Source: Spiroplasma phoeniceum P40 (lineage in GTDB: Bacteria > Bacillota_I > Bacilli_A > Mycoplasmatales > Mycoplasmataceae). From it: a DNA stretch of 64,000 nucleotides. The DNA lies in contig NZ_CP031088.1 of the NCBI RefSeq assembly GCF_003339775.1, positions 1,674,001-1,738,000 of the forward strand, given 5' to 3'. The notes beneath the pieces were generated by a model. That model had not been told where the DNA came from, ran no database searches, and was given only the letters and a program-made list of their open reading frames with translations. Positions 1-21,064 of this stretch are shown piece by piece. A program made the translations under genes and the position numbers. Position 1 is the stretch's first letter. Every line of letters starts with the position of its first letter.

Positions 1-209
1 AATTTTGTAATGTTCCATATAAGACGCAATAACACCTCATTTATCTTTAAATAAATTTAAGTACATTTTTGCTCATTCTAAACATTGAAAATCATAATGT
101 TTTTTATGATGTAAAAACGACAATCAATAGGTTGACAATTAACTCAATCAAAAGATGTTGTTATTTCATCTCAAGTTTTATTAATATATTTACTTTTATA
201 TTCCATCAT
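1..209 (-). pseudogene. Phage early small protein, copy 1 (partial, frameshifted)
   Basis: This is the left-hand copy of the intact 94-residue gene at 20267-20551 and starts at the same ATG behind an AGGAGA ribosome site. A one-base deletion near 117 breaks the frame after about 30 codons. The 3' end is outside the window. Function unknown. It would be the first gene after the large RNA in the early operon of another phage unit lying to the left. Confidence 0.8.
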
Positions 210-214
210 TTTTT

Positions 215-722
215 CTCCTATCTTTAACTCGCTGGCACTCACTCCCAAGTGAAAGTGCCGAAGCGATAATTAGTTATATAAGTATTTATCTATTTATTTA
301 CTACGCCATCCGCTTTACTGGGGTAAGCGGTGGCGGTGTTATGTTTTGTTTTAGCATCTATTAAAAATCTGCAACTATATTTTTAAATTAGACGCCAGAC
401 ATATATATGTCTTCCTTCTCCGTTCCTTTTTCAAGGAGGCAACGCTCAGTTTTTGAAATTAAATTTACTCGCATCAATTTGAAGGACCTAATGCTAATCG
501 CAAATTTAATTGTTTGTGTCACCATCTCTATTTTTATTGTGGTTTGATGTTAGCCTTGGACACATCACCACTATCGCAAGTTATTAAAAATAATAACCAA
601 CGCCGATTTACCTCTTTCCTCATACACTATTTCAGTACTTGCCTCGGACGGCTGTGGGAATGAGTTAATACTCATGTTCTTATGGAAGCACTTAGTTATT
701 TAAAATAACCGTCCCACTCTGC
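215..722 (-). ncRNA. Candidate large structured phage RNA, copy 1
   Basis: About 510 nt lie between two small minus-strand ORFs. No frame is usefully open, the GC content is higher than in neighbouring DNA, and many stems can be seen. One at 229-266 pairs TCGCT, GGCACT and CACT with AGTG, AGTGCC and AGCGA. The copy is almost identical to copy 2 (20557-21062), and the diverged copy 3 keeps the stems. Size, prophage setting and density of helices recall ornate large phage RNAs such as ROOL or GOLLD. That family assignment is inference. Confidence 0.65.
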
Positions 723-724
723 AT

Positions 725-959
725 TAAGTTGTTTTATAAAATCAAATTTTTAATGAACCAGTTTCATAATCAAAGATAATTTTTGAATTTTCTAGTTTTT
801 GATAAAATTGTTGTTGTGTTTTATCTTTTACCTTATTCAATAAATTTCTATGTTTTTCACAAGTTCATAAAACTTTATTTGATACAAATTCTTCGGTGAT
901 GAATGATGATAATTTATAACAATCATTAACATCACATATTTTTGTTGTTTAATTATCAT
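725..959 (-). pseudogene. Phage early 78-aa protein, copy 1 (frameshifted)
   Basis: Copy of the intact gene at 21065-21301. It keeps the GGAGG ribosome site and ATG, but one A is missing from the run near codon 8, so the frame is lost. Function unknown; the intact copy has a small Cys/His-containing N-terminal part. Confidence 0.8.
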
Positions 960-991
960 TACCTCCTTTTAGGAGTTGTTTTATTTCAAAT

Positions 992-1019
992 AAAAAAACA
1001 ACCCTTTAACAAGAGTTGC
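992..1019 (-). terminator. Leader terminator hairpin, repeat copy 1
   Basis: On the minus strand CAACTC pairs with GGGTTG (one G-U pair) and a run of seven T follows. It lies about 20 nt inside the transcript expected from the -10 box at 1041-1046 and before the first ORF, so it looks like an attenuator. Confidence 0.65.
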
Positions 1020-1040
1020 TTTTTTGCCGCTTCATCGTAC

Positions 1041-1069
1041 ATTATACATTATGTATTATGTAAATTCAA
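1041..1069 (-). promoter_or_regulatory. Early-operon promoter, copy 1, with -35 from the IS end
   Basis: On the minus strand TTGAAT is followed by 17 nt and TATAAT. The -10 box is inside the repeat. The -35 box lies in the first bases of the IS30-type element, so this would be a hybrid promoter formed at the junction. Confidence 0.5.
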
Positions 1070-2332
1070 GTAGCAAAATCTGTCTCTTGTTAATTTGATA
1101 ATAACATCATTTTTAACAAATGCAACTCTTTTTTTAAAAAAATAAAATATTTTATAAATATAGCTTAATTTAACCATATTTAAGCACACTAAAAAAGCAT
1201 TTATTAAATTTTAATTAATAAATTTACTTAATATTCTGTAAAAACATTTCTTTTGCACTTATTCAATTTAAACACGGTCGGAGTTTATCATTTATAACAT
1301 TAACTACTCAATCAATTTGTTTTTGACTAACATTATTAAAATCAGTGTCCTTAGGAAAGCGTTTTCTAAATTCACGGTTAATTCTTTCAATTAAGGGTTT
1401 TTGTTTTGGTGAACCAGGGTCACAATAATAAACATTAGAACCAGTAATCTTTTCCATCTCTTCAAATTTACTAAATTCTTTACCTCTATCTGTTATTATT
1501 CCTTTAATTTTTCCAATTAAATTATTACTTATAACAATATCTTTAAACTTTTCTACAACTTCATTAGCAGTATGATTTTCTAATTTCATAGCAAAGTATT
1601 TTTTACTTGATTGTTCTACTAAAACTAAAACAGCAGATTTATGGTCTTTTCCAACAACTGTATCCGCTTCAAGTCATCCAACATTAGAAACTTTATTTTC
1701 AATATCTCAAATTGACTTAAATCTTTCATCTAATTTGCCACGATTATCAGGTCTTTTTTTGTTCTATTTCTTCTACCACCATTTAATAAATTTTTCTTTA
1801 ACAAACCCAAAAGACCTAAATAAATTCATTTATACAATTTTTACACAAACGGGAAATTTAATCCCAAACTTTATTAAAAAACGCTGAATAATTTCTGCTG
1901 GTGAATCATGATAAGCATTAAATCTCAGATGAATGAAATTTAATTGCTCTTCTGTAAATTCAGGTAGTTTTTTAATACATTTTTTACGCTTTTTATAATA
2001 ATCTTTTTGTGCTTCTATTGCTATATAATCTTCTATATTTTTTAAATCGCTTAATTTCTCTTTTAACAGTATTCACACTGCGATTTGTTTGTCTTGCAAT
2101 TTCAGATAAATTAAGCGTACCATTTTTCTTTTTACAACTATCAGATAAAAATAAATCCTTAAATAAATTTCGTTCATCATATTTTAGATGTGTATAATCT
2201 TTCATATATTCTGTCTCCAATCTTTTTAAAATTATTTATACACTATTTTTAAAAAACTATTGACAATTATTTTTAAAGTTATACAATTAATTTATAACAA
2301 GTTGCGAATATCTGTCTCTATACTTGTTTTAC
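1060..2332 (-). mobile_element. IS30-family element (inactivated)
   Basis: The ends carry imperfect inverted repeats: GTAAATTCAAGTA at the left and, on the complement of the right end, GTAAAACAAGTA. Both ends also contain the motif ATCTGTCTC. The element encloses a broken IS30 transposase. I cannot see a clear target duplication. It sits exactly between the repeat and the late-gene leader. Confidence 0.6.
1224..2220 (-). pseudogene. IS30-family transposase, frameshifted
   Basis: The N-terminus has the IS30 helix-turn-helix (YDERNLFKDLFL, then LSEIARQTNRSVNTVKREI). The catalytic part has DTVVGK, ITDRGKEF and IERINREFRK, giving the Asp-Asp-Glu triad. The C-terminus is LRPCLNWISAKEMF. At least three frameshifts or stops, near 2040, 1840 and 1760, split it, so no active enzyme is expected. 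Intact family members are about 320 residues, which fits the 997-bp span. Confidence 0.85.
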
Positions 2333-2360
2333 AAAAAAAGACTTGAAAAAGTCTTTTTTT
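2333..2360. terminator. Perfect 12-bp hairpin with GAAA loop
   Basis: AAAAAAAGACTT, loop GAAA, AAGTCTTTTTTT. It is strong in both directions and lies just outside the IS right end and upstream of the late genes. It would isolate the late operon from readthrough. Confidence 0.8.
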
Positions 2361-2423
2361 AATTGTAAAATAAACATAATAAAATAATATTAAGTTCTTT
2401 AATACATTTTGCTAAGTTTTTAG

Positions 2424-2452
2424 TTCTTGATAAGTTTGATAGGTTTTATACT
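2424..2452 (+). promoter_or_regulatory. Possible late-operon promoter
   Basis: TTCTTG, 17 nt, TATACT, about 60 bp ahead of the first late gene. The -35 box is weak. Between 2361 and 2512 I see nothing else. Confidence 0.35.
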
Positions 2453-2512
2453 CTTTTATTTAACCATATTGTTTAAATAATAGCAATTTTAATATGCAAA
2501 AAGGAGTAAAAA

Positions 2513-2850
2513 ATGGTAACTTTTAAGACTATTTCAAGTAAAACTAAGGCATTTTGAAGAAAAAAGACACCAAATTAAGCAATAAAAGAGCATATTTATA
2601 CTATTTAAAACTACCATTTGATAATTGACAAGATGAAGTTGATACAAAAACCGCTTTATTTTATTAAAATACAATAAATCAATTAGAAATAGAATTGGAA
2701 TTGGCTTTATTAAATGACAAATATGGCGGGGGGAAGAAAATATATGTTGAGAAATATGTTAAAGATACAAATATAAATAATGCTAATATTGTTATTAATT
2801 TTGATAATGTTGATTTACCTAAAATAAATGAGGTGATTAAAGATGCTTAA
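2513..2850 (+). pseudogene. Probable terminase small subunit (broken)
   Basis: Starts with MVTFKTISSKTKAFWRKK behind a GGAG site. The frame shifts near 2575 and continues as KLSNKRAYLYYLKLPFDNW, with an in-frame TAA at about 2667, and ends LPKINEVIKDA. The 3' end overlaps the start of the next gene, whose nuclease domain identifies it as large terminase. The small-subunit role rests on size (about 112 codons) and position, because I recognise no domain. Not functional as it stands. Confidence 0.5.
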
Positions 2851-4313
2851 ACATTTTTTACATTTAGATGAAATTCCAAGATGATTTTTATCAACAACAT
2901 GTTCCTAATGCCACCGTGAAAAGAAATATATAATCCTGCTGATGAATATAATGAAATAGGAAGTCGTTATAGTGCTAAAACTTTTATGATAAAAGATAAT
3001 GTAGTTGGCAAATGCTGTGCTATATCATTATTGGTTGGTAAGCCAATATTTATTATTGCTGTTATGAAAATGAATAAAGATATTAGAAATGGAGTATTTA
3101 AAAAATATTCAAAATACTCTTAATGATATGAATATTAATTATAAAGTTAATTTATCTGAGAATTCTTTTACATTAGATAATGGTACTTATATTATTTGTA
3201 AAGGTTTACATTCACAAACTAAAAGAGAAAAATTAAAAGCATTTGCTGATTTAAATAATTATGAATTTGCTATTGAATGAAGAGAAGAAGCAGACCAATT
3301 AACAAAAGATGATATGAGTGAATTAAAATATGCTATTCGTGGTGCTAAAAGAAAATTTATTATTAATTCATCTAATCCTGAATCATTACACCGTTATATT
3401 ATTAAATTATTGTAATGAAATAATGTTATTTAATGAACAAATATTATTATCTAAATATCCTGATCAAATAGGTAAATTTAAAATTAATTATTATGAAAAG
3501 AATAAAAAAACTTACTAAAACAGTAATAATACATTATTCTAGTTGAAGACTTAATCCTTATTTAGATGATAATGTAATTCTTGACCAATTAGAAACAGAA
3601 AAATTAGACCCAGTTAGAGCAAGAGTATGAAGTTGAGGATTACCTGGGCAAGTACAAGGTGCTGTTTTTGCTAGATATCTTAAATTTACTAAATTAACTT
3701 GAAATTTTGACAAAATATTAGGTGGTGTTGATTTTGCCCAAGCAGATAGTCCTAATGACATAAAACAAGTGCTAGTTTATGAGTATATAATTCAACTTTA
3801 AAAAAAGTACATAAAATAGGTAAATATACACATTCTAATGCAACAATGGAATATAAAGATACATTTGAACAAGCAAATGATATTATTCAATTTTATTTAT
3901 CTAGTTTAAAAAATAGTACTATTTTTATTGAAAGTGGTTTAACTATTAATGTTGATTATGGTGCTGGTGGTAGAGCATTTATTGATGTTCTTAATAAAGA
4001 AAAAATAAAATATAGATATGGTAAATTATTAAGATTTGAAGAAGTTGATAAAAGTATCTGGTCAGTTACTAATAGAGTTAATTCATTTATTGCAGCAATG
4101 ATTAGTGATAAAAATGACCCATGATTTAATACTTAGAAGAAAGTAATACTGAATATCCAATGATTCAATGAAAAGAAAAAACCTAATGGTGGAAAAGAAG
4201 AAATAGTTGATTTATATGATGATGAATTTGATGCTGATTATTATGCATTATCAGAATATATAAGAGAGATTGTTCAATCATCAACTAATAGATTAATAAG
4301 GGAGTATATTTAA
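2843..4313 (+). pseudogene. terL: Phage terminase large subunit (multiple frameshifts)
   Basis: Pieces in successive frames join into a protein of about 490 residues. The N-terminal ATPase part includes GSRYSAKTFM in the Walker A position and, further on, FAIEWREEADQ as the acidic motif. The C-terminal nuclease part begins KILGGVDFAQADSPND, the typical first Asp motif of the terminase RNase H-like fold. In phages this enzyme packages DNA into the procapsid through the portal. I count about six single-base frameshifts (near 2900, 3100, 3410, 3510, 3770, 4130), several in A or T runs. Portal and structural genes follow. Confidence 0.75.
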
Positions 4314-4314
4314 A

Positions 4315-5843
4315 ATGTATATATATTTAATTGATATGGATAAAATTATTGGAAAATATAAAAAGAATGTCCTAAAAATAATATTTTTGTTTATAAATAT
4401 AAAAATGATTATAAAGTTTTAAAAGTAGATAAAGTAGAAAAAGACAGTAAGATATTAATTTGTCATCTTGCTAGATTAGGAGTAAATAAAAATGAAATAA
4501 TAATATAAAATAATTGATTATCATTTAATAATCGTGATTGAAAAATAAATGTGCCTTTAATTGTTGCACAAAGAAAAGTAAGAATGGAAATTGGGCGTGG
4601 TTTACTTTGTGATAGTGAAAATGAACAAGCATTAATACATTGACAAAATTGATATCATAAAAGAAAAATTTATGAAAAATTAATTAAAATGTCATGAACT
4701 AAATCATTATTAGGTGTTGCTGTTATGTTTATATATGAAACACATGATGGTGATTTAGATGTTATGTTAGGAACAGCATTATTTACTAATTTTGTATCAA
4801 AAATTAATGAAGAAGAGCAAGCAGCAGATATTTGAATATTACCAAATCAAGATGATACTGGTTATATCTTTCATGTTGTTATTAATGATAAATATATTCA
4901 AATTGATTCATATCCTAATGATTGAAAATACTCAAGCAGGTGCAAACTACTGGAAAAATAGATAAAAGTTTAAGAATTGAAAAAAAGAACTATATTAATA
5001 AATTAGGTCGTTTTCCATTAATTCAAATTCCTAATTTTATTCGTGCTAATCAACAAGGTCAAGCATCAAGTACAATGTTAAATGCTTATCCCGATATTTA
5101 CCCTACTATGTGATTAATTGAAGATTTACAAGATAATTTATTTATTAAAAAGAAAACAAGAAGATTTTCACGAGCAAGAGGTTATATTCAAGCAACAAGT
5201 GAAGAAATAGATAATGTAAAAAAGAATAAAAAATCTTGAAATGATTATGAAAGTGATTTTGTTATTCAAAATGTATTAAATAACTATGATGAAAAAGGTG
5301 GTGGATCAACTGTTAATTATACTCAAGGACAATATAACTCAAATGATTATAATTTAGATACTGATCATATTTTTAAAAAATGTTTTTCGTGGTATTGGTT
5401 TAAGTTGACAAGCAGATGAACAAGGAACTTATACTAATCAAAATCAAACATTAATTATGCAAGCAGAAGATATTGAATCACAAGCAGTATGACAAGATTT
5501 TTTATTAGATTATTTATATCGTTTATTTGATTGTTGATGAATATTTCATAAATATTGAATTGCTGAAAATAGTAATTGAGATAAAATTGAACGCCCCTAT
5601 TCATTAAAATTTAAACCAGCAGGAATTATTGACCAAATGCGTTTAGTTGATGTAAATAATACAAGAATAGAAAATGGTACTATGTCTCGTGCAAAATATA
5701 TTCATATTGTTGATAGTATTCCTATGACATTTGCAATAAAAGAAGTTGAAAAAATTGATAAAGCACAATTAGAAACTAATTCTAAATTTGATTTAGAAAA
5801 TGATAATACAGGTGGTATAAAAGATGAATTTAAACAAAAATAA
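4315..5843 (+). pseudogene. Probable phage portal protein (frameshifted)
   Basis: Reconstructs to about 510 residues from four frames, with breaks near 4360, 4920 and 5380 and a TAA near 4505. Recognisable stretches are KINVPLIVAQRKVRMEIGRG, a region with DDTGYIFHVVINDKYIQID, and LGRFPLIQIPNFIRANQQGQ. Length, position right after large terminase and the mixed alpha/beta character fit a portal, the dodecameric ring through which DNA enters. No motif proves it. The stop is followed by a second TAG. Confidence 0.5.
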
Positions 5844-8810
5844 TAGTAAAGAATTAATACAAATTAATAATCAAGTATTATATACTGCAATGAGAATGGC
5901 ATCTACTGATAGTAAAGTTATTAAGCGTAAAATCCAAGAATTAGATAAATGATTTATTTTTTCCTTTTGTAATTACTAATGGGTTATTCCATTAACTACA
6001 AGTGGATATAAACCAATTAATAGTATTCCGCAAGATTATTCAGATTTTACTTTAGCAATTACTGGTAATGCTACTATTATTGCTCAATGAAAAAATGCTT
6101 TTAAATTAAAACAAGTTAATAAAGGAACAGAAGAAAAAAACTTTAAAGATGCTGATAATTTTTATACTAAAATTATTAATCCAATGCATTATCCTACTAA
6201 TCGTGGTGATATGTATGAAGCATATTTACAAAATAGTACAAGTGGTGCATATTTTTCATCGCAAGGAACGCCTGACCCTATTTTTCAAGGTATTTCAACT
6301 CAAAGACAATATACTTTATTATCAACAGATAAACAATTTGGTCAAAATGATGAATAAACCTTTATGTTGTTTTAAATAAAAATAATGAAAATATTGGTGG
6401 AGAAACTATTAATACTTATGAATATAATCAATCTATTCAATGATTATATATTTCTAATATTACAGATTACTATGATCCTTTTGATAATAAAAAGTTTTTA
6501 TTTCAAGAAATTACATTTAGTAGTGTTAATGACCATTTATCTAAATCAGGTATGGCAATATGACAAAAAATACAACATGGTGCTATTGGTGAAGGTTATT
6601 TTTCCCAAGAATTATTAATGGAATTGTTGATTATGACCCATTTTAGCCGAAGATGTTGGTGTTAAAATGAATTGATTTAAAAGTATTAGGTTTAACTGCT
6701 TTTAGTTCTTTAACTGTTATTGGTCGCCCTATTAAATCAGGACAAATTAATAAAAGAGTATATCAACCACGAGATTTATTATTTTTCAGATGAATTAAGT
6801 GGAATGCCAATACTTTATTAACTAATTCTAATCCTGCTAATGTTTTATATAATTTACAAGGATTAAAACCATCTAATCAAACTACTTATGGAGAATGAAC
6901 TAATATTTTTAATGCATTAGCAGATCCATTAGCAAAGAAAAATGCTGAAGGTGTATTAGGAAGTGATTTAATTGCTACTAGAGCAACAAATCCTAATAAA
7001 ACACCTTTTTGAGATAGTGGATTACAATTTAAACCTAAAAGGTGCTTATGATACGAAACAAATTCGTAAATTTATTTATCAAGACCCAGAATATAAAAAA
7101 GTCTCTTTTGGTGTTGCATCATTTGATTATTCACAATTAAAATCTTCATCATTTCATGATATATTAAATGCTAATCGTTATACACATTCATCAATTTCAT
7201 TATTACCTTGAGATGTTAATGAATTTACTAAATTTAGTCTTAATAATTTACCTATTGTTGGTAAAATAATTTCATTTTTTGATTTAGGTTTACCAGTTAA
7301 ATTAATGAGTCAAAAAAAATACGCAATTAATACCAAAAATAGCACAATTAAATGCTTTTATTGATTATTTAAGTTATGAAATTATTCAAAATAGTTTATG
7401 AAAAGATAATAGTGCTGGAAAAGGTAATATTCCTTATGATATGTTCGTAATGAAACAGAAGACCAAGTTGGTGTTTAATTGGAAGTAATTCATTAACATT
7501 TGGTTGTATGCTTAAATTAACTGATAAAATCAAAACACATTATTATTCTGCAACTGGTCAAGATTTAGGTACAAAAGTTTATTCTACTATTGATTTAGGA
7601 CAAAATAGAATTAATGTTAATGGTGGTACTGATGAAATTGTAATATTATCACAAGATTTTCAAGCATTAGATAAAGATACACCATTAACTAATTTAGATA
7701 ATAAATTAGATTTTAATCCAACTACTGATGGAACATTAGAAAGTTATGTAATTGATTTAATTAATTTACAAACTATTGGTTAAAACTAATTTTTAAAATT
7801 ACAACATATTCAGGAAAATCCATTTACTTTAAATGATAATATTACTGCATTTCAAAATTTTCAAGGTGAATGACAAAACAATGGCAAAATTTATTAAACC
7901 AAATGGGAATGTACAAGCATGAAATAGTGTTATTAAAACAAGTGCATTAGATTATGATTTATTAGAAGAAACAACATTTTTTTTACCCTTCAAGCAGTAT
8001 TGCCACCAGACCCATTTACATATAAACCATATACTGTAAATATATTAGATGCTAATAGAAATTATCCATTAAAAACTAATATTACTGTAAATTCACACTG
8101 TATTAATCGTGGTAATTATTTTTAGATAATTTATATACTTCTTATTATGAATTAGAAGTTGATTTAAAAACAAATTAACCCAACAATTACTACTTTAGAA
8201 CAATTTTTAAATGCTTATTCATCAATTCAATTTAATAATCTTAATAATTTATATGTTTGTGTATTTGAACCAGATATAAAATATTTTATTTCTAATAGAA
8301 ATGTTAATTTATTAGCTGGGAAAAATAGTTGCAGCAATAATTTAGGTTTATTATCTAACGTAACTTTAAAAAAAGAAGGTTTATCACAACTTGACAATGT
8401 TAATTTTAATGGTAGTTTAATTTATGACCTTGCTAATATAAAAAGAAAATAAGATGAAAAACATTATTTACTGGTGAAACTACTAATACACCAAGTGAAG
8501 ATTATAAAAGTATTTATTGGACTGAAAAAAATAGTGGTGTTTTTCAGTTTTTATTGAAAATTTCTGATATTTCTGATAATAAAGTTAAAGAAATATATTT
8601 ACAAGCATATTATACAAATGATATGAAATTAAAAATTAGATTTTCAAAAAAAAATTGAAACCAGAATTAATATTTTTAGGTGGTGCTGGATATTGACCTT
8701 ATTTTGGTAATGATAAAGATTTAACAATAGATATTAATAATCACCTTGTTTTAGGTATTAGAAATAAAAGTATTAACCCTATTAGTATTACAGTTATTCC
8801 CAAAAGTTAG
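5824..8810 (+). pseudogene. Large phage structural protein, tail or receptor-binding type (heavily frameshifted)
   Basis: A coding tract of about 990 codons can be followed through roughly a dozen frameshifts. It starts MNLNKNNSKELIQINNQ, overlapping the portal end. Typical pieces are INPMHYPTNRGDMYEAYL, LYISNITDYYDPFDNKKF, FGVASFDYSQLKSSSFHD and LIFLGGAGYWPYFGND near the end. It is rich in Asn, Tyr and beta-type sequence without transmembrane segments, as in tail or adsorption proteins of short-tailed phages. It could be two genes; the decay hides any boundary. I recognise no family. Confidence 0.5.
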
Positions 8811-8820
8811 GTTTTGATAC

Positions 8821-8849
8821 TTGAATATATATATATATATATATATAAT
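8821..8849 (+). promoter_or_regulatory. Lipoprotein promoter with TA-repeat spacer
   Basis: TTGAAT at 8821-8826 and TATAAT at 8844-8849 are separated by exactly 17 bp. All 17 are alternating A and T. A change in TA copy number would alter the spacing in steps of two. The ATG of the lipoprotein follows about 40 bp later. Confidence 0.65.
8825..8847. repeat. TA dinucleotide microsatellite
   Basis: About 11 uninterrupted AT/TA units forming the spacer between the -35 and -10 boxes of the prophage lipoprotein gene. Confidence 0.9.
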
Positions 8850-8887
8850 TGTGATTGTAAAAGGATTTAATGAAAGGAATTATAATA

Positions 8888-9415
8888 ATGAAAAAGATAT
8901 TAAGTCTTTTTAGGTACAATCACTTTAATTGGAACAAGTACAACAAGTTTAGTTGCTTGTAATAAAACACAAGAATACACACCCGAAGAATTAAAAGAAC
9001 TAAAAGAAAAGAATAAAATAGATACTACTAACCAAGAAATTAAAGATAATTTAGAATGAATAGCAGCACAAGAAAAACCATTTAATTCTCAGGGAGATTA
9101 TAAATATTATATAATTGTATGAAAAGGTGCAAAAAACGATAATTGAACAATTAAAAAATATAAAAATATAGGTTATACTGAAAATAATACAATAAATGGT
9201 ATTATTAGTTATACTAAAATTGACAAGTCATATAGTGGCGCATTTTTATATAGAAATGAATTTGATTTAGCTGCAAATAAAACAAGAGAACATGCGACTT
9301 GAATTGAAGATGATGGAACTTTTTTAAATCAGTTTATTGCTGAAATGGTGAAGAACAAAAATTACCTAATTTAGTTATTGATGATAATGGTAATGTAAAA
9401 GTTAAGGGTGAATAA
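8888..9415 (+). pseudogene. Prophage-encoded lipoprotein (frameshifted)
   Basis: If one T is removed from the run at about 8908, the N-terminus reads MKKILSLLGTITLIG followed by TSTTSLVACNK, a textbook Spiroplasma lipoprotein signal with a lipobox Cys. The mature part (about 150 residues) is hydrophilic, with YYIIVWKGAKNDNWTIKKY and TKIDKSYSGAFLYRNEF. A second frameshift near 9347 precedes the end DDNGNVKVKGE. A surface lipoprotein inside a phage late operon suggests lysogenic conversion, for example superinfection exclusion; that is inference. Both breaks could be slippage events. Confidence 0.65.
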
Positions 9416-9416
9416 G

Positions 9417-9662
9417 ATGGCAGTTATTAAAAAAATCGTTAGATTGTGAGATGCCTGATTGTAAAGATAAGTATTAGCAAAATTTAAAAAAGATGAAAAT
9501 GATAATTTAGTTAGACAAATGCAGGGTGATTGACCTGTGCAGTTGTGTATTAATCATTTTAAAGAATTTCAACTAAAACTTAAAGAAACAATGGTATATA
9601 TGAAAAGCAAGATAAAGGAATATAAAGATATGCTTAATACTATGATTGTTAAAAAGAATTAA
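9417..9662 (+). pseudogene. Short phage protein, in-frame stops
   Basis: ATG just after the lipoprotein stop gives MAVIKKIVRLWDAWL, then TAA and a second TAA within three codons. The same frame then stays open for 64 codons (VLAKFKKDENDNLVRQ to LNTMIVKKN), a basic, coiled-coil-like sequence. An intact version would be about 81 residues. Function unknown. Confidence 0.45.
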
Positions 9663-9687
9663 AAAAGAGATTTAATATCTCTTTTTT
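9661..9687 (+). terminator. Rho-independent terminator
   Basis: AAAAAAGAGAT, loop, ATCTCTTTTTT, directly behind the last codon of the preceding gene. It closes the first late-gene block. Confidence 0.85.
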
Positions 9688-9770
9688 GTCGGGCAGCTTG
9701 CCTGCTCTCTAAGAACACACCAGCAATTTTGTTTCTAGAAGTATTTACCGACTAGACTCTGACCGACAAC
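9688..9770 (+). ncRNA. Candidate small structured RNA
   Basis: A GC-richer patch of about 80 nt between the terminator and the tRNA. GTCGG at its start can pair with either of two CCGAC motifs near its end, and GCAG-CTTGC-CTGC forms an inner hairpin. It has no ORF. From 9771 to 9990 I see only AT-rich sequence. Strand and function are not established. Confidence 0.3.
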
Positions 9771-9993
9771 AACGATAATCTTGTATATCATCATTATAAA
9801 TAATTTTTGGAAATTGCAAGAATATATTTTAATTTCATGATTATTTAATAAGTCTAAATATTTATATATAAATATATTTGTTTGTAAATACCTTTATTAC
9901 GTGTTTTAAGGGGTATATTAGCAATAAAATATATTAAGTTTAGATTTATATTTATGGAGAATTATGAAATTAAGTAAAAAAACTCTAGTTAAA

Positions 9994-10084
9994 TGGCGGA
10001 ACAGGAGAGATTTGAACTCTCACATCGGTTACCCGACCTAACATCTTAGCAGGATGTCCTCTTGTCCAATTTGAGTACTGTTCC
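9994..10084 (-). tRNA. tRNA-Ser(GCU), CCA encoded
   Basis: The complement folds as a complete class II tRNA. The acceptor GGAACAG pairs with CTGTTCC, the anticodon stem ACATC/GATGT encloses CTGCTAA (anticodon GCT), a variable arm forms around GGTCGGGTAACCGAT, and the T arm is GAGAG-TTCAAAT-CTCTC. A discriminator G and an encoded CCA follow. It reads AGC/AGU serine codons. It sits on the strand opposite to the late genes, between two phage gene blocks. Confidence 0.9.
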
Positions 10085-10300
10085 ATATGGAAATACTAAA
10101 AATGTCGTATTTTACAGCATTTCAATTTTATTATAACACTTTTATGTTATTTGTTTAGTATTTATATATATAAAAAGTATTGTATTGGTAAAATAATAGT
10201 GTAAAATAAAGTTAATGGTTTAATCTTTTTCCATAAAAAGAGTCTTAACTATAATTTGTTAAAAGTGTTAATCCAACACTTAAATAAGGAGTGCAAAATA

Positions 10301-10555
10301 ATGGCAAATGTAGAAAAAATTAAAGAGATTTTAAATATTGATGATGAAAAAGCACAAGCAGTTAATGAATTATTAGATGCTCAAGCAAAACAAATTCGTG
10401 AATCAATTAAAAATCGTGAAGATGTAGTTGAAAAAACAGATTGAGAAACTGTTAATGCTCAATTACAAGAATTAAAAAATAAAAGTAATTTATTAGAAAA
10501 TGAATTATATTTACAAAATTTTACAGATAAAGATAAAAAATTATTAGTTCATTAA
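10301..10555 (+). CDS. Small coiled-coil phage protein, possible scaffold
   Basis: 84 residues, start MANVEKIKEILNID behind AAGGAG. It is highly charged and almost entirely helical, with heptad-like stretches (EKAQAVNELLDAQAKQIRE, then LKNKSNLLENELY). It lies two genes ahead of the capsid protein, where many phages encode a scaffold or head-assembly factor. That position is the only support for a role. The gene is intact and first of a tight cluster with the next two genes. Confidence 0.65.
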
Positions 10556-10561
10556 TTGATA

Positions 10562-10786
10562 ATGAAAAATATAATGATTTTATCTAAACAAGAAAGAATA
10601 AATAAAATAGCAGAAGAATATAATCTAAATCAAGTTGATGGCACTGTTGATGGTGGATCAGTTATTGACCAAATGTTAAAAAGACAAGAAGAAATTAAAT
10701 CTAATCGTTTAGAAGAAATTAAAAAAAATGGTGCTAAAACTGATGAAGATATTATTGAAATTGCTAAAAATTTACAATGACAATAA
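10562..10786 (+). CDS. Small phage head-region protein
   Basis: 74 residues starting MKNIMILSKQERINKIAEE, six bases after the previous stop. It contains a Gly/Ser-rich turn (DGTVDGGSVIDQMLKRQEE) between charged helices and ends IAKNLQWQ, the Trp being TGA. No transmembrane segment. Its stop overlaps the AAGGAGG site of the capsid gene, so the two are probably co-translated. An assembly accessory is likely but unproven. Confidence 0.6.
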
Positions 10787-10799
10787 GGAGGATTAACCT

Positions 10800-12129
10800 A
10801 TGGCAAAAATAGGTGAAAATCAAGTATTGCATTACCTACTCTTTTTCAAATTGGTGGAAATAGTCCAACAGAAAAAGCAATTGGTGATGTTGCAGTTTTA
10901 CAAATTAAAAAAATTTTAGAAGCAGATAGTCAATATATTGACGCAACAGAAATGATGATGATGTCTGCTAAACAAATTTCAATGGCAGGTCCTTTTGAAC
11001 AAGGGCAATATGTATTTCCTGAAAGAATGGTTTGAGGAAATGATTATGATACATCTGATGGTGCTGAACAACAATCAGTAGGAGTACGAAGAGCAGTCGT
11101 TATGATGGATCAAATGCTAACTTTTAAGTATGATGTTCCTTCATTTGATACTGTTCGTTTTATGGAATCACCTGTTGAAGTAAGAAACTAATACAATTGG
11201 AGAATGAATGCGTACTATTACTCGTAATTGATATTCAAATATGAATGCAATTTATTTACAAGGAGTTATTGATAGTTGTATTGCAACTGGTCAATATATT
11301 ATATTACCAATTCCAACAGATGCAGATTCAGCACAACAAACATTTTATAAAATTAATGATATTGCTATTAATTTAGTACAAAAAATAAATGCATTAATGT
11401 TTGGTACTTCAAAAGATGATTTAGTAGTACATGTAGCTATGCCAGCATTTGCTCAATTTACAAAAAGCATATACTAAAATCTTAGACCAAATTGCAGCAG
11501 ATACATTAGCAACTGGTCAATTATGAAGAAAAATGATTGTTGGTGTTGATGTATTTGAAAGTTGATATTTAGGTCGCCAATTTAATAAAGGTAAAGAAAC
11601 TGGAATTAATAAAGACTTAGATTTTAATTTAAACTTTTCACAAACAGTTGGAGCATGAGGATTTATTGGACATAAAGAAGATTGTGCTATGCCACAAGGT
11701 TGAAAAAGTATTCAACAAGTAATTAATCAAAATACAGGTAATCTTCGTTATATGGGGCGTGGAATTTTTTCATTACCAACATTTATGCGACAAATGCATT
11801 GATTATTTGTAACTGGAACTCCAACAAATAATGATATTACTAATGCTCAAAATAAAAAAGGTTATACATTTGAGTTAGCACCTTGAATAAATTTAGTACC
11901 GCCAACACTACCTGCTTTATCAACAGTTATTACAACACCTAATTTAGGTCAAATTACAATGGTTGGTGATACACCAACAACAGCAGAATTAGAAACTGCT
12001 ATTAAGACAAAAAATACTAATTATCAAACTGGAGATGCAACATTCTCTAATATTACATCTACTGGCACATTAGCAACTGGAAATCCAAATAAATATAGTG
12101 GAACAGTTTCTTTAATTTATTCAAAGTAA
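10800..12129 (+). pseudogene. Probable major capsid protein (three frameshifts)
   Basis: Behind a perfect AAGGAGG, MAKIGE is followed after a one-base loss by SSIALPTLFQIGGNSPTEK. It continues with MSMAGPFEQGQYVFPERMVW, ESPVEVR, a second break near 11190, LVVHVAMPAFAQFTK, a third break near 11465, then MIVGVDVFESWYLG and FSLPTFMRQMHWLF. About 440 residues, no membrane segment, position after scaffold-sized proteins and the HK97-type pattern of long mixed alpha/beta sequence suggest the main shell protein. In its own frame it ends at TAA 12127-12129; coding continues in the -1 frame. Confidence 0.6.
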
Positions 12130-12782
12130 GTAGTGCCGTAGATATTCACGATAAAATTAAAAATGTTGATAGTTTAACAAATGATGAAATAATTAAAGGA
12201 ATTATTGTACCTCAAAAAGTATCAAGTGAAGATTTAAGACCGCTTTTAAATGATAAAGTTTTAAAAGCAGTTAAAGCGGTTGATGCAAGTTTAACAGCAG
12301 ATGATTATGATTGATGACCGTTATATTATCAAGGTGAACCATCAAGTTATGATATTACTACAACAGATATTTATGTTGATATTTATATTGCTGGTAAAAA
12401 TAATGCAACTGGTGTATCACAAGTTCAGTATTATAAAGTACAAAAAGTAAATCAAATAAGTATTAAACAATTTAATAAAGATAATATTGGAACTTTAAAA
12501 ACACCTTGATATAGTGATGTTCCTGATTTAACTAAAAAAGCAGATGTAATTACTGAAATGAATACTGGTTTTATTAAAGCAATTCAAAAACTTAATGCTG
12601 GTTTAACAACTTCAGATTATATTGTTAATATTTTAGATTATGATCATTCAATATTTAATGATAGAGATGAGGGTAATTTTAGCAATAATGTTTCGGTACC
12701 ATATAGTTTAATTGGTACAAATTGATTAACTGGTGAAACAACAGGAATGGAAATTACAGTTCCTGCTGCTACTAAAAAATAA
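12130..12782 (+). other. -1 frame extension of the capsid gene with spiralin-like repeats
   Basis: The -1 frame is open for 217 codons with no ribosome site or ATG near its start. It reads LFKVSSAVDIHDKIKNVDS onward to ITVPAATKK. Two internal repeats are visible: VLKAVKAVDASLTADDYD (about 12258-12311) and FIKAIQKLNAGLTTSDYI (about 12569-12622). They resemble, from memory, the VLKAV...TAADF segment of the Spiroplasma surface lipoprotein spiralin, and the following IYVDIYIAGK...VQYYKVQ resembles spiralin's next strands. Access could be by ribosomal slippage at C-AAA-G just before the TAA, or this is another decay frameshift. Confidence 0.5.
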
Positions 12783-12797
12783 AAAGGAGTGAAAATT

Positions 12798-12986
12798 ATG
12801 GCAAATACAATTAAACCAACTTTATTTGGAAATAATCAAATAAAATCAATTAATAATTCAAATCAAGAATGGAGTTTGCAAAAAGTAAATAAATCAATTA
12901 AAGAACAAATGGAATTAACTTTAACAGTTGATAATGGTTCAAATAGTGGTTCTATTTCATCTAAAAAACCAACAAAAATTGACTAG
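12798..12986 (+). CDS. Small phage protein after capsid gene
   Basis: 62 residues: MANTIKPTLFGNNQIKSINN, then a polar C-terminus rich in Ser, Asn and Lys. AAGGAG lies 9 bp upstream. An in-frame GTG at 12789 is too close to the ribosome site to be preferred. No domain recognised. Head decoration or a head-completion factor are guesses from position. Confidence 0.6.
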   Translation: MANTIKPTLFGNNQIKSINNSNQEWSLQKVNKSIKEQMELTLTVDNGSNSGSISSKKPTKID

Positions 12987-13018
12987 GAGGTAGGTAGGAA
13001 ACTACCTTTTATTGTTTA

Positions 13019-13888
13019 ATGTTAAAATTAATTAGATTATTAACTGCTGCTTTACAAGATACTAAAATTGGTGAATTATTAAAAGATGGTTTAAAAAAGT
13101 ATGGCATTATTAAAAAAGAAACTTCTCAATTTAAAAAATTATATAATTGAACAGACCCAAGGAACGTTTTACAATATTTAAAAAAGGCAACAAAACAAGA
13201 AATTAATTCTTTATTAGATAAAATAGAAAAAAGAAGTTTAGAACAAGGGAAAAATTTATTTAATGAGCAATATCAAGATTCAAAAGAATGAGTTAATATT
13301 CAATCTAGTTGAATTAAATATGGTAAGTTTGAAATGACAAATAAAATTACTAATACGGGTAATGCTACGTTTTTATTTCAACCAAAGGTAAAAGTATATG
13401 GACCTTATACTTATCCTTCAATGCCGGCTGATGTTTGATTAGCAATAAAAAATGCTAATGCTAATGCTGGGACTTTATTTTGAAGAATTTGATTAAGAGT
13501 ATGATTACCAAGTATGATTCGTAAACATGTTAAAGAAGGTTTAAAAAATAAAGGTATTTATTATGGCAAAATATCAAAAAACTTTATAAATGCAAAAGAT
13601 ATTAATGATTTAAGAAAATACATTAGAAAACTTGAACAAGGTTTTTATCGTAATATTGGTCATGATAAACGAAGAACTGTTAATCAAATTGGTACTTATA
13701 AGTGAAAACAAAATCAAGCACAACAATTTAGAAAAAAAAGAAGAGAATATTTATCACAATTTTCTAAAATAAATAAACCAATACAATTTGTTAATTTTAC
13801 TAAAAAAACACAAAAAGTATTAAGAAATATTAAAATTGAAGGTAAAAAAATACAAAAAAATATTAAATATGTAAGGAGGGCTACATAA
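13019..13888 (+). CDS. Phage head or head-tail protein of unknown family
   Basis: 289 residues, MLKLIRLLTAALQDTKIGE. It is very basic, with a helical N-terminal third (KKATKQEINSLLDKIEKRS), a central beta-type part (KFEMTNKITNTGNATFLFQP, VKVYGPYTYPSMPADVW) and a Lys/Arg-rich tail (RRTVNQIGTYKWKQNQAQQF). TGA Trp codons are frequent and there is no frameshift. The stop overlaps the next ATG (TAATG), so it is coupled to the connector-like gene. This fits a minor capsid or head-tail joining protein; I cannot name the family. Confidence 0.65.
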
Positions 13889-15234
13889 TGGCAATACAAT
13901 TAAAAGATATTGTTAATAAGTGAATGTATATATCAATTCAAGAATTAAAAGAATCTGGTTTTTGAACAAATGATTTTGAAGATAATAAACAAACTTATAG
14001 TGATGAATGAATTAAAAAAGCAATTAATTTAAGTTCAGTTAAAATTAATGATTGGACTGGTGGTTATATTGGATATGCCGATAATATTAATAATTTAACA
14101 GAAGAACAACAAATTGCTGTTAAATGAGCAACTGCTATTTATACTTTACATTGATTATCAAAAGGAACTGAATATCTTTTACAAGCAACAACTTTTTCAC
14201 AAGGTAGTCAATCATACAATATTGATGTACCACAAGATATGCAATTTGTACCTGATGAAGTACAAAAAATATTAATTAATGCTGGTTTATATGAAAATAT
14301 TCGATTTGCTAATTTAAAAGAAAAAGATAATTCTTGATTTGGTAATGATTGAAGATATGAATTTGATGAAGGAAGTGGATATGCTAGTTATGATTGAGTA
14401 AAAAATAATTATATTTCCAACAATAATATTACTTCAAGTGATAATTCAATTTTAATTAATTTTATAAATAAAATTGATTCTGTTCCTAAAAAATTAGATT
14501 TAAAAGTTAATAATATTTCCGTTAAACTGGATAATAAAAGTATTATATATAATTCTAATAATGAATTATCAGTGCCTTTTGATAATGATACGATTTATTA
14601 TGAAAATAATGTATGAAAAGCAAAACAAGGTGGTGATATACCATCTGATGTTATTAAAGATAGTGATTTAAATAAAGATTATATTGATAAAGAAGATGGA
14701 AAATATATTGTTAAAAAAGCACAAAGTGGTAGTTCAATAACAGTTAATGCCCCATTACATCAAAAAGATGATAGTAGTTTAGAATTATTATTATCAGATG
14801 AATTTGGTGTTAAAAATAATAAATTATCTTTAAATCAAAGTTTTAAAGATACTTTTGAACAAGTAATAAAATGAATATTTGATATAGGTAAAAAAATAAA
14901 ATGAGAAAAAGTAAGTATATCTTATACACCTGATAGTGCTAAGTATATTGATATTCCTGAATTTTCAGAAGAATATCGTTATCAAGTTTGATTATCACCA
15001 ACTAATCGTAAAGGTGCTGAAGGTATGTTATGACTTGAACCACCTTATTTTACAGAAACAAAAGAAAATAAAACTTTATCTAAACATCAAGCAACTTGTT
15101 TTATTGATGATTTCGATAAAACCCCTTATAGTATTGCTTTATATAGTGCTAGTGGTCGGATTTATTTAACTAATGGTTCAGAGGGTTCTAATATACCAAT
15201 TAATAGTGTTCGTATTTTTCGACAAGAGGTGTAA
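13888..15234 (+). CDS. Head-tail connector-like protein with large C-terminal extension
   Basis: 448 residues, intact. Roughly residues 1-160 resemble gp6-type head-tail connectors: helical, KKAINLSSVKINDWTGG, AVKWATAIYTLHWLSKG, VPDEVQKILINAGLYENIRF. The rest is a low-complexity Asn/Ser/Asp region followed by a C-terminal beta-rich domain (KWEKVSISYTPDSAKYIDIP, QVWLSPTNRKGAEGMLWLEP, YSIALYSASGRIYLTNG). That layout looks like a connector fused to a fibre or receptor-binding head. GGAGG lies just upstream inside the previous gene. The fusion interpretation is inference; a single adsorption protein is possible. Confidence 0.6.
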
Positions 15235-15236
15235 AT

Positions 15237-15839
15237 ATGATAGATAAAGAAAATATTATTATTAAAAATGAAAATGGTACTTATTGACAAAGATTAGGTT
15301 TTGAACAAAGAAATCCAAGTCAAAGTTTTAAAGCATGAAAAAATCGTAAGTTTTTAAAATATGATAAATATCCATTTCATATTAAAAAAGCATATATTAT
15401 GCGATATAATGCACTGTCAATTTTATATCATACTCCATTTTTAAGTTTATATGGATTATTTTTTACTAGTTTACATTTTAATTGAATACCAACATTAGAA
15501 CCAATTAAAGAGTTTATGTTTGGTCAACACAATATAACTGATGGTGGTTTTTTTGGATATACTGGGATTATTATATCTTATCCAATATTACATGGTACTG
15601 CTTGATTAACAACAAAAATACCTAAAATACCAGCAATTAAATTACCGATTGGTAAATGTTTAGAGCAAGTTTATAAAATACCAAGTTATATCTTATATTT
15701 AATATTATTTGGTTGATTAATATTTCGTAAATATCTTAAAAAACATAATGTTAATATTTGTCATAATTGTAAAAAAACAATAGAACAAGTTAAAAGTTGA
15801 AATCAATATTGTCTTAAAAAAAGATGAATAAAAGAATAA
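15237..15839 (+). CDS. Phage membrane protein with C-terminal Cys-rich tail
   Basis: 200 residues starting MIDKENIIIKNENG. Three or four hydrophobic segments (NALSILYHTPFLSLYGLFF, FFGYTGIIISYPILHG, SYILYLILFGWLIF) and a short zinc-ribbon-like end (NICHNCKK, then YCLKK). GAGG lies 10 bp upstream, two bases after the previous stop. The last gene of the block before a new promoter, it could act in adsorption, exclusion or lysis. No family recognised. Confidence 0.6.
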
Positions 15840-15846
15840 GATTTGT

Positions 15847-15852
15847 TATAAT
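15847..15852 (+). promoter_or_regulatory. Possible -10 box with downstream GTACGTAC palindrome
   Basis: TATAAT at 15847-15852 followed by the palindrome GTACGTAC at 15860-15867, ahead of the gene at 15907. I see no good -35 box. The palindrome could be an operator. Confidence 0.35.
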
Positions 15853-15906
15853 TAAATTGTACGTACGGCAAAATATATAGATTATAAAATAGAAAGGTGG
15901 CAATTT

Positions 15907-16326
15907 ATGCTTACATCAACAATTGGAATTATTGTAATTGTTGCTTCTGTTGTAGGTGGGGTTGTTGCTAGTTTATTAATTGGTTATATTAGTAAATTAA
16001 TTAAAAATAAAGCAATCTCAGTAAAAGCAGAACGCATTACAGATGATTTTAGAGAAAATGCTGAAGAAAAAATCTTTAATAAAATTGAAGATGCATTTGA
16101 AAATATTGTGTTAGTTATGAATGATATTAAAAATCATTTTGGTGGTGTTGGTACTCAAAATATTGCTCGTGTTGAAGAAGATATTAATGATTTAAAATTA
16201 GCAATTTCTGATTTAGAAAAATATGATAATGAAGAATTAATTGAAGCTACTTTACAACATAAAGCAACAAAACGAGACATTACTCATAAAGCACATAAAG
16301 TCGCAGGACTTAAATTAAAAAAATAA
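15907..16326 (+). CDS. Phage protein with N-terminal membrane segment and coiled coil
   Basis: 139 residues. Residues 1-30 form one hydrophobic helix (TIGIIVIVASVVGGVVASLL). The rest is charged and helical (KIFNKIEDAFENIVLVMND, RVEEDINDLKLAISDLEKY) with a basic end. A GAAAGGTGG site precedes the ATG. It is the last + strand gene, with its own promoter and terminator. Topology fits a holin-like or spanin-like lysis protein or a membrane anchor. Cells without a wall need no endolysin, and none is seen in the window. Confidence 0.65.
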   Translation: MLTSTIGIIVIVASVVGGVVASLLIGYISKLIKNKAISVKAERITDDFRENAEEKIFNKIEDAFENIVLVMNDIKNHFGGVGTQNIARVEEDINDLKLAISDLEKYDNEELIEATLQHKATKRDITHKAHKVAGLKLKK

Positions 16327-16345
16327 CCAATTAAGGTTATTTTTT
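16321..16345. terminator. Convergent terminator between late and early operons
   Basis: AAATAACC, loop AATTAA, GGTTATTTTTT. It lies over the ends of the two converging genes and can serve both strands. Confidence 0.8.
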
Positions 16346-16544
16346 ATTTGTTATTTACAATATAATAATTAATAAAATATTCTACTTTTTCTGAAAAAGT
16401 ATAGTTTTGTGGTAAATTATTTCATATTTTTTCTTGTTCGGTATTTAAGTAAAGATTAACAGTTTTACGAACCATACTAGAATAATATATTTTTCTTCTT
16501 TGATTATATTTTTCTTTTCGTTTTTTATTATATGTTTTCTTCAT
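16344..16544 (-). CDS. Small basic phage protein
   Basis: 66 residues. Residues 1-25 are nearly all Lys, Arg and Tyr (MKKTYNKKRKEKYNQRRK). The rest reads MVRKTVNLYLNTEQEKIWNN and FSEKVEYFINYYIV. The strand-then-two-helices pattern resembles a ribbon-helix-helix DNA-binding protein, which would suit a repressor or nicking accessory. It is the last gene of the early operon, five bases after the resolvase stop. Confidence 0.6.
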
Positions 16545-16548
16545 AATA

Positions 16549-17046
16549 TTACCTCTCATAATTAGCAATTATAATTGCATCGCGGAGATGATTACTTATT
16601 TTTTCATTATTATAAAATCAACCTTTACCATATTGATAAGTTAAATTAGGATCTTTATCATATTTTCATAAACAACTATTATTATATTTACTTAAATTTT
16701 CCATATTTTTAACAACTGATTTAGTATATTTTGGTGATATAAAATTAAAAGTAAATAAAGTATTTTCAATCGCACCCAGTAATCTTAATAAATCATCACG
16801 GTCTTTTGAACCATTAGCATTTGTATATAAGCAATCTTCAATATTTCGTATGTCTGATAAAATTTTACCTTTATTTTTTACATAATAATCTGAATATAAA
16901 TATTCAAGTATAAATCCATCTATAAACTCAAAATGTTCTTTTCAATCTTTATTTTTAAATTCATGCTGTTTAACTAATTTATTATCTTCATAAATAACAA
17001 TACCAGTAGTACCAGTACCTGATGGGTCAATACCTATTTTTATCAT
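16549..17046 (-). CDS. RuvC-like Holliday junction resolvase (RNase H fold)
   Basis: 165 residues. The first strand MIKIGIDPSGTGTTGIVIYE carries the RuvC-type catalytic Asp7, and HLRDAIIIANYE near the C-terminus supplies the final Asp. Phage enzymes of this type cut four-way junctions and branched DNA before packaging. The middle (NIEDCLYTNANGSKDRDDLL) is variable. The ATG overlaps the stop of the ERF gene, giving an annealing-plus-resolution pair typical of phage recombination modules. Confidence 0.75.
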
Positions 17047-17717
17047 TATTTTAAAAACCTTTCTTTAAATTGATAATAAAAATCTTCACTTTGTTTTTTA
17101 ATAATAACTGGTTCTAATTTTGTTGCACTTGTAGTTTCTTTAATAAATTTTTTTGCTTCTTCTTTAATATTTATATCTATTTTTGTATTTGTAATAAAAT
17201 TTTTAATATTATTAAAATGTTCTAAACTCATTGAATTTGGATTATTATTTTCTTTAATAACTTGATTACTATTTTCTTTACTTATTTCAGTACTATCAGG
17301 ATCTAATTCATCTGTTGCTATACCAAAAGTTTTACATAATCAATAACGAGCTCCATAAGTTAAAGCACTACCAATTGCTTTTGCAATATCTGAATTTTGT
17401 GCTGATAAAATAATTCCTAATTCTATTTTTTCACTACCTTTATAAAGTGTTAATAATCCTTTTGAATAATAATTTATTAATTTTCCACCTTTACTACTTT
17501 GTGTTTCTGTAAAACTTGGTTCTCCAACTGCTTGAATAGTATAAGTTATACCTTGTTTACGTAATTGTGGTTTTAAGGTTTGATAGAGGTCACTTTCTGT
17601 AAAATAATTATAATTATTATGGTCATTTCTGGCATTTTTACCAACAAAAAGATTTATATCAGATTGAATTTCTCCAATACTTTCAATTAAGGTTTTTGTT
17701 TTAGTTTCTTGTGGCAT
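17046..17717 (-). CDS. erf: ERF-family single-strand annealing protein
   Basis: 223 residues. The ERF core is clear: RNDHNNYNYFTESDLYQTLK near residue 35, then SAQNSDIAKAIGSALTYGAR with RYWLCKTFGIATDELDPD. Family members anneal complementary single strands and work with SSB and a nuclease in phage recombination and genome circularisation. The C-terminal 75 residues are linker and helical. The start overlaps the nuclease gene upstream and the stop overlaps the resolvase start. All Trp positions in the core are TGA. Confidence 0.9.
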
Positions 17718-18354
17718 TTTCTCACTCCTCTCTTTCTTGTCATATTAAAATGGCTTCTTTAATTTGTTCTAAATCTTGTTTAGTAATATTAACTTTTTCT
17801 TTAATTACTATTTTTAATTTTGGATTTATAATTATCATTAATATTTTTTTATTATCTATACAAAAGTTTTTTTCTAATAAATAATAAAGTTTTAATTGTC
17901 AAATATAGCGTTCAATATCCGCTTTTTCATTAGAACTTGTAATTTTTCAATCACACATTATATATTCATTATCTGTTGTTATACCAATAAAATCAGTTGT
18001 ACCACACATTAAAGGACTATAAAGTGTTTTTTCAGTTTCATAATGTCTAAATTTAATATCTTTAAAAGTTTCTTGATATAGTTTTATAAAATTTTTAAAT
18101 AATTCACGATGTGATTTTATTTCACAATCAATAAATTCAATTAATTCATCATCAAAATTATTTTTTATTCAAACATCAATCATATTATGTATACATATTC
18201 CACGATTTTGTGCTAATTTTAAAATATTATCATCAATTTGCGAATAGTCTTTTGGTAATAAAATATTAACAATTTGACTAACACTAGGAATTAAAATGCT
18301 ATACTTATGTAATTCATCATTATAAATATATAAAGGTTTTAAATCTAATCTCAT
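17701..18354 (-). CDS. PD-(D/E)XK exonuclease-like protein
   Basis: 217 residues with the signature of RecB/lambda-exonuclease-type nucleases: His56 (GICIHNMIDV), Asp121 (CGTTDFIG), Asp135-x-Lys137 (MCDWKIT) and Gln153 (YIWQLKLYYLL). It would resect double-stranded ends to make substrate for the ERF protein. The gene overlaps the ERF start by 17 bp because TGA is read as Trp in its last codons (QEREEWENATRN). It also overlaps the SSB stop, so translation of the module is probably coupled. Confidence 0.8.
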
Positions 18355-18770
18355 AAAATTGCTTCATCATTACCAATATTTTGATTATCATTATTAAATA
18401 ATTCTTTTGTATCAGATGAATTAAATTCTATTTTTTCTTGTGGTTTTTCAGATAAAGTATCTTTTTTTAAATTATTATTAGTTTGTAAAAATTCACAACT
18501 ATAAACTCTTACCATTCATTGTATTTTATTATCTTTATCTTTATAAGATTGTAAAATACCTGTAATTGCAATTTGACTACCTTTTTGACAATATTGTTGT
18601 AATAAATTTGCTTGTTTATTTCAAACTTGACAAGGAATAAAATCAGTTTCTTTTTGGGTTGAATGTGGTCTTGCTACTGCTAATTGAAACATAGCATATT
18701 CTTTCCCATTTTGAGTTTTCTTAATTTCAATATCTTTTGTTGTTCTTCCAATTCCAATAAATTTATTCAT
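18345..18770 (-). CDS. ssb: Phage single-stranded DNA-binding protein
   Basis: 141 residues. The OB-fold core starts MNKFIGIGRTTKDIEIKKTQ, followed by YAMFQLAVARPHSTQKETDF, IPCQVWNKQANLLQQYCQKG and SQIAITGILQSYKDKDN, all typical SSB positions. An acidic, Asn-rich tail ends in DEAILWD, a likely protein-docking tip. GGAGGATGAAT precedes the ATG. In the operon it is followed by nuclease, annealing protein and resolvase. Confidence 0.9.
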
Positions 18771-19018
18771 TATTCATCCTCCTTACTAGGTAATTTGTCA
18801 TATTTAGAATTATCTTTAAGATAAAATGTTATTCCATTATCGCAGCAAATTGAACTATGTTCTCATAAACAAGTTACTTTTTGAAAATCTTCTTTATATA
18901 ATATTTGTTGTTTTAATTCTGTAAGTTCTTCTTTAAGTACATCATTATCACAAAATAAACAATAATCAGAGTTAATTTGATTAACAGGGCATTGACATTT
19001 TTTACAATATTTTGCCAT
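18770..19018 (-). CDS. Small zinc-ribbon protein
   Basis: 82 residues. The N-terminus YCKKCQCPVNQINSDYCLFC has two CxxC pairs about 11 residues apart, a likely zinc site. A coiled-coil stretch and another Cys pair (SSICCDNG) follow. It overlaps both neighbours by one base (TAATG type), so it belongs to the early operon. It may be a DNA-binding or adaptor protein; no family assigned. Confidence 0.65.
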
Positions 19019-19326: not shown

Positions 19327-19327
19327 T

Positions 19328-19465
19328 TTATAATTCCTCCAAATTCTTTTCTGCAATTAAAGTATCAATATAGTCATAAGCACTTTCTTCTGAATGACAT
19401 TCTTCTAATGCTTCATTAAATAAATCTTCTTTTGTGTAAACTTTGCCATCTTCATCTTTTCACAT
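19328..19465 (-). CDS. Acidic 45-aa early protein
   Basis: MWKDEDGKVYTKEDLFNEAL and a Glu/Asp-rich helix ending AEKNLEEL. The second codon is TGA (Trp). A diverged homologue sits at 22096-22233 in the remnant operon. Conservation between two phage variants shows that it is a real gene. Acidic and small, as for anti-restriction or regulatory peptides, but without direct evidence. Confidence 0.65.
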
Positions 19466-19466
19466 A

Positions 19467-19802: not shown

Positions 19803-19803
19803 A

Positions 19804-19974: not shown

Positions 19975-19978
19975 AATT

Positions 19979-20116: not shown

Positions 20117-20128
20117 ATTTAATTCCTC

Positions 20129-20257: not shown

Positions 20258-20266
20258 CTTTACCTC

Positions 20267-20551: not shown

Positions 20552-20556
20552 TTTTT

Positions 20557-21062: not shown

Positions 21063-21064
21063 CA

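Follow-up and report, generated by a model that had tools for sequence, protein, structure and literature searches.

A TA-repeat promoter spacer of variable length ahead of lipoprotein genes in Spiroplasma prophages: a candidate for repeat-length switching

Repeat-length promoter switching is already known for bacterial surface genes. The hifA/hifB promoter of Haemophilus influenzae carries TA repeats between its −35 and −10 elements. Vmm of Mycoplasma mycoides subsp. mycoides SC (Persson et al. 2002, as described in PMC10502178, PMC2628566 and PMC3053259) switches when dinucleotides are gained or lost in the spacer of its promoter (PMC10502178, PMC2628566), and poly-TA tracts of about 10–16 units lie upstream of lipoprotein genes in M. 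mycoides (PMC3053259). The vlp genes of Mycoplasma hyorhinis have a poly-A promoter tract (PMC10502178). In the open-access literature, no paper was found that describes TA-repeat switching for Spiroplasma or for Spiroplasma phages. The element described here lies in the window (the whole 64-kb stretch of Spiroplasma DNA that was analysed, G000:C1:1674001-1738000) and, like that of Vmm, places a repeat between the −35 and −10 elements of a plausible surface-protein promoter.

The TA-repeat element in the window

The original prediction held that TTGAAT and TATAAT flank exactly 17 alternating A/T bases and form the promoter of a prophage lipoprotein gene. The first part was confirmed: window positions 8821–8849 read TTGAAT-ATATATATATATATATA-TATAAT, with a spacer of exactly 17 nt in which all bases alternate between A and T. 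The second part is credible on sequence grounds, the element having the appearance of a sigma-70 promoter located 10 bp past the stop codon of a phage structural gene and 38 bp ahead of the lipoprotein gene. No terminator of the upstream phage gene was found in the promoter region. The features are as follows; the −35 element, spacer, −10 element and ribosome-binding site were read directly from the window.

8808..8810, + strand: stop codon of a large phage protein lying upstream, whose 3' part has ~70% DNA identity to the long ORF of phage MaM-2019a
8821..8826, + strand: −35 element TTGAAT; the TTG at the 5' edge of the repeat is kept in nearly all homologues
8825..8847, + strand: (AT)11.5 microsatellite, 23 nt uninterrupted, length-variable in homologues (spacers 3–45)
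8827..8843, + strand: spacer, 17 nt of pure alternating A/T
8844..8849, + strand: −10 element TATAAT, on the gene-proximal side of the repeat (51:0 proximal versus distal)
8855..8857, + strand: expected transcription start, ~6 nt past the −10 element, from the −10/start spacing in S. melliferum (PMC5138195)
8872..8878, + strand: ribosome-binding site GAAAGGA, conserved in homologues

The repeat at 8825–8847 was the sole alternating A/T run of at least 12 nt in the 64 kb examined. A first-order Markov estimate put the expected number of such runs at 8e-7 in 64 kb and 2.4e-5 in the whole genome, and on the latter figure an origin of the run by pure chance was rejected. The −35 and −10 hexamers alone matched at 10 of 12 positions, and promoter-like sites in 3 kb numbered 26 against 25 expected. 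Because a hexamer match of this kind is unremarkable in AT-rich DNA, the case for the element has to be made from the repeat and from comparison with other loci.

The tandem prophage and its lipoprotein gene

The locus is present three times in the genome at a spacing of 20.34 kb, and window positions 1–1058 recur at 20342–21401, which indicates a tandem prophage; it consists of three 20.34-kb units and a 1.06-kb partial repeat (window 1–21401). DNA similarity and the order of the terminase, portal, long ORF, lipoprotein, capsid and recombination genes placed it in the MaM-2019a type. For gene order, window ORFs were matched by position and by reading, alongside the DNA matches, and genes were read with TGA as Trp. 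DNA identity to Spiroplasma phage MaM-2019a (S. poulsonii) was 68–71% in two stretches, the long ORF's 3' part and the lipoprotein gene. The promoter is phage-borne, with the element sitting in the third tandem copy. A transposase-like fragment was recognized by reading at 1224–2220, inside the prophage unit.

1..20341, + strand: third 20.34-kb unit of the tandem prophage (MaM-2019a type), preceded in the genome by copies 1 and 2
8888..9415, + strand: prophage lipoprotein gene, ATG at 8888; 175 aa in copies 1 and 2; lipobox LVAC
9417..9662, + strand: small downstream ORF, possibly co-transcribed; 81 aa in copy 1; frame broken by indels in copy 3

The MaM-2019a records (OL689226, OL689227 and OL689230; S. 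poulsonii) share with the window the terminase, portal, long ORF, lipoprotein, capsid and recombination genes. They differ in that their surface operon runs against the late genes and has its TA promoter in front of a secreted protein (L011/L012), whereas the lipoprotein cassette of the window (8888–9950) is co-directional with the late genes and directly behind the promoter. A divergent-promoter flank remnant was seen in the window at about 9894–9943 on the minus strand.

The lipoprotein has conserved N-terminal and C-terminal blocks around a hypervariable centre, a sequence pattern like that of a variable surface protein; surface exposure and an antigen-like or exclusion function would fit it. 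It had no match in Pfam or PADLOC and no significant match in a sequence search of the PDB, a scan of IMG/VR found no relatives, and its N-terminal part matched only PHROGs of unknown function. An AlphaFold model (mean pLDDT 33) was unusable. A paralogous lipoprotein promoter in the same genome (L063, G000:C1:137884-137930) has an AT run of 47 nt and a spacer of 41.

A frameshifted T run in the signal sequence had also been predicted. The extra T at 8903–8907 is present in the window copy, together with a missing T near 9319, and the broken frame could mean that this lipoprotein gene is a pseudogene and its promoter a relic. Copies 1 and 2 keep the frame at the T-run site, where their sequence is CTTTTAGGT, and the gene is whole in both; its 175-aa lipoprotein product reads MKKILSLLGTITLIGTSTTSLVAC... 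In the three-unit alignment, copy 3 differed privately at 77 places, of which 61 were indels, and all of these fell in window 1–11.3 kb; copy 2 had 5 private differences. Copy 1 had 742 private columns, perhaps owing to sequence divergence near one end of the unit, given that copies 1 and 2 are near-identical across the 5.8 kb that surround the locus. Uneven long-read polishing produces just such a burst of single-base indels in one of several near-identical repeats, so the T-run frameshift, private to copy 3, is treated as a probable artefact. From the alignment, the copy-3 indels, which break many phage genes, are probably consensus error from assembly or polishing. With the gene intact in copies 1 and 2 and the indel being one of the 61 private to copy 3, the pseudogene reading is very improbable. 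The T run as a second, translational switch was rejected, being private to copy 3 and part of the indel burst. At window 10163, a short TATATATA tract has one extra TA unit in copy 3 relative to copies 1 and 2.

Homologous promoters and variation in repeat length

Flank-based searches of 14 Spiroplasma genomes, run with the promoter query and rerun with a query lacking the repeat, both returned dozens of homologous promoters. The strict set, from which plectrovirus and other runs were left out, comprised 69 homologous promoters in prophages of Spiroplasma and in phage records. These have the form TTG[T/C/A]-(TA)n-TATAAT and stand ahead of secreted or lipoprotein operons; four loci lacked a TTG near the run. 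Every measurable spacer in the set was odd, with a range of 3–45 nt, as fits 2-bp slippage. Spacer lengths were then counted once per cluster of near-identical loci (43 clusters). Within 11–23 nt there were 34 cluster-states: 17 nt (19), 13 nt (7), 15 nt (4), 21 nt (2), 19 nt (1) and 11 nt (1). The mode was 17, with 19 of the 34; the consensus spacing is thus the preferred state, as for a Vmm-type promoter. Against a uniform distribution over seven odd classes the excess at 17 had p = 2e-8, a value that is indicative only as it ignores relatedness between clusters, and the excess could come partly from shared ancestry.

The S. poulsonii phages NSRO-P1 and MSRO-P1 carry TTGTAT, 17 nt of pure TA and TATAAT before the operon of a secreted protein and a homologous lipoprotein. 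The exact 29-mer of the window recurs in other genomes (L225, L198) and before a plectrovirus-like element (L238). Spacers that are interrupted or non-repetitive often keep a total of 17 nt. The interrupted arrays TTGTATGTATA..., TTGTATATATGTATA..., TTGCACATATA... and TTGCACACATATA... each still sum to 17, as does the non-repetitive spacer TTGTATTTACATGATTCCATATATATAAT of L067. Among the window-type promoters, which share the 5' leader TGTGATTGTAA, the spacer is 17 in the window, L067 (non-repetitive), L068 and L003, and 41, 16, 16, 15, 15, 13 and 5 in the others. S. citri plasmid homologues have short, interrupted tracts with spacers of 15, 16, 17 and 16 and little strain variation.

With regard to position, TATAAT was gene-proximal in 51 long AT runs and distal in none. 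Of the runs of at least 16 nt, 57 of 77 preceded signal-peptide-like starts against a background of 12%, in a set that includes flank-selected promoters and is enriched by design.

These counts bear on whether the repeat is a neutral microsatellite, in which TA slippage in an AT-rich genome would place TATAAT trivially at the run edge of a −10-only promoter, with no switching. Many Mollicute promoters rely on the −10 element only, and Mesoplasma florum, from the sister genus Mesoplasma, has no clear conserved −35 box (PMC7745072), so that spacing may matter less than assumed. Some long AT runs also lie away from signal-peptide starts, such as the apparently intragenic L065. Set against this are the sharp mode at 17 with retention of the TTG, the exclusively gene-proximal TATAAT and the many runs ahead of surface genes. 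In addition, start-site mapping in S. melliferum found TAWAAT, with 6 nt as the commonest spacing between −10 and start, together with a pronounced TTGACA −35 box, so a −35 box exists in Spiroplasma (PMC5138195). We consider neutrality distinctly unlikely. L065 itself (G000:C1:1025581-1025616) is a 36-nt AT run seemingly within a reading frame (Tyr-Ile repeat), possibly a translational repeat.

The self-complementary TA tract might alternatively be an operator or structural element: as a binding site or cruciform it would control the phage operon, and its changes in length would be incidental. Palindromes such as TTGTATATATATACAA occur in related S. citri promoters and are compatible with this. 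Runs of 10 to 52 nt with varied interruptions, however, would not hold one operator geometry, and it is the −35 to −10 distance that tends to stay, which makes such a role extremely improbable.

Two same-genome pairs with 100% identical 250-bp flanks had spacers of 17 and 15 (L185/L195 and L183/L189); in further same-genome sets with equally identical flanks, L159 and L163 had spacers of 13 and 3, and L148-L150 and L151 had 17 and 45. Further pairs with 97–99% identical flanks also differed in spacer, and more than one spacer length was found in 7 of 10 multi-member clusters. With identical flanks and differing spacers, the repeat changes faster than any other part of the locus. Assemblies may misreport repeat lengths, yet the regular 2-bp steps argue against random error.

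Whole-unit length variation between near-identical loci, as expected of a Vmm-type promoter, was thus found among homologous loci and not among the window genome's three tandem copies, all of which have the same 23-nt AT run. The original prediction had named an invariant repeat across related strains as evidence against switching; the repeat proved variable among homologues, and invariance held for the three copies. Other identical sets likewise keep one length, for example five G002 copies at spacer 15, and several more do so. Such sets would suit graded tuning, in which length sets promoter strength between copies over evolutionary time and is effectively fixed within a culture. Sets with a single length may, however, merely be recent duplications, and the pairs with identical 250-bp flanks and different spacers imply that the repeat mutates faster than its surroundings. 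Graded tuning is accordingly judged unlikely, if still to be taken seriously.

A separate element of roughly 70 nt was observed in about 20 copies (L254-L273 in G000, G001 and G003, e.g. L242 and L064), near SVGII3/SVTS2-type plectrovirus sequence. It has a possible stem, TGTGGTATAG / CTATGCTACACA (found by eye), and a terminator-like hairpin, and it had no match in Rfam; it may be a small RNA, or it may serve in replication or packaging. Upstream of it lies either CTTG-poly-T-GTTTTAATTA, with variable T length, or TTG[C/A]-(AT)11.5-AAT with a spacer of 17.

Proposed switching and comparison with known systems

Sequence comparison shows the element to be real: it belongs to a promoter design that is conserved among Spiroplasma prophages and variable in length. 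We propose that it acts as a housekeeping-sigma promoter whose −35/−10 spacer is a TA microsatellite, ahead of the surface-lipoprotein cargo of a tailed Spiroplasma prophage. Replication slippage would add or remove TA units in 2-bp steps. At a spacer of 17 nt, the state in the window and the predicted ON length, the hexamers would be optimally spaced and the lysogen would express the lipoprotein without depending on the phage late genes; other lengths would lower expression and yield a mixed ON/OFF population. We think it probable, with some reserve, that the promoter is a slippage-variable sigma-70 promoter that is ON near 17, with ON/OFF switching as its most likely use. An effect on transcription, its reversibility and a benefit (surface variation, possibly superinfection exclusion or host-interface variation) are what we infer from this arrangement.

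More tentatively, and with a little less than even confidence, a temperate phage lineage of Spiroplasma may carry a contingency promoter on its surface cargo operon. Lysogenic conversion would then itself be phase-variable, cells would express a changing subset of phage surface proteins through several copies of differing length, and the filamentous plectroviruses may have a parallel in a poly-T or poly-TA spacer. In Spiroplasma associated with insects and plants, repeat-length switching would be a device conserved within a temperate phage lineage, present in many copies per genome with differing lengths, and prophages may be a source of variable surface proteins for such symbionts and plant pathogens. 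It also provides a natural allelic series of one promoter, with spacers from 3 to 45, in which spacing can be tested against output.

Among the known systems, the window element is like Vmm in having a dinucleotide repeat in the promoter spacer of a small Mollicute surface protein gene. The two differ in that Vmm ON/OFF clones were shown by experiment and Vmm is not described as phage cargo, whereas the window gene belongs to a Spiroplasma prophage and its switching is proposed from sequence. As at hifA/hifB, a change in TA units alters the −35/−10 spacing; hifA/hifB, in contrast, are fimbrial genes of a Gram-negative bacterium with overlapping divergent promoters and are not phage-borne. The vlp genes share control of transcription by the length of a lipoprotein-promoter repeat, but there the repeat is a homopolymer rather than a dinucleotide, and the gene family is not described as phage-borne.
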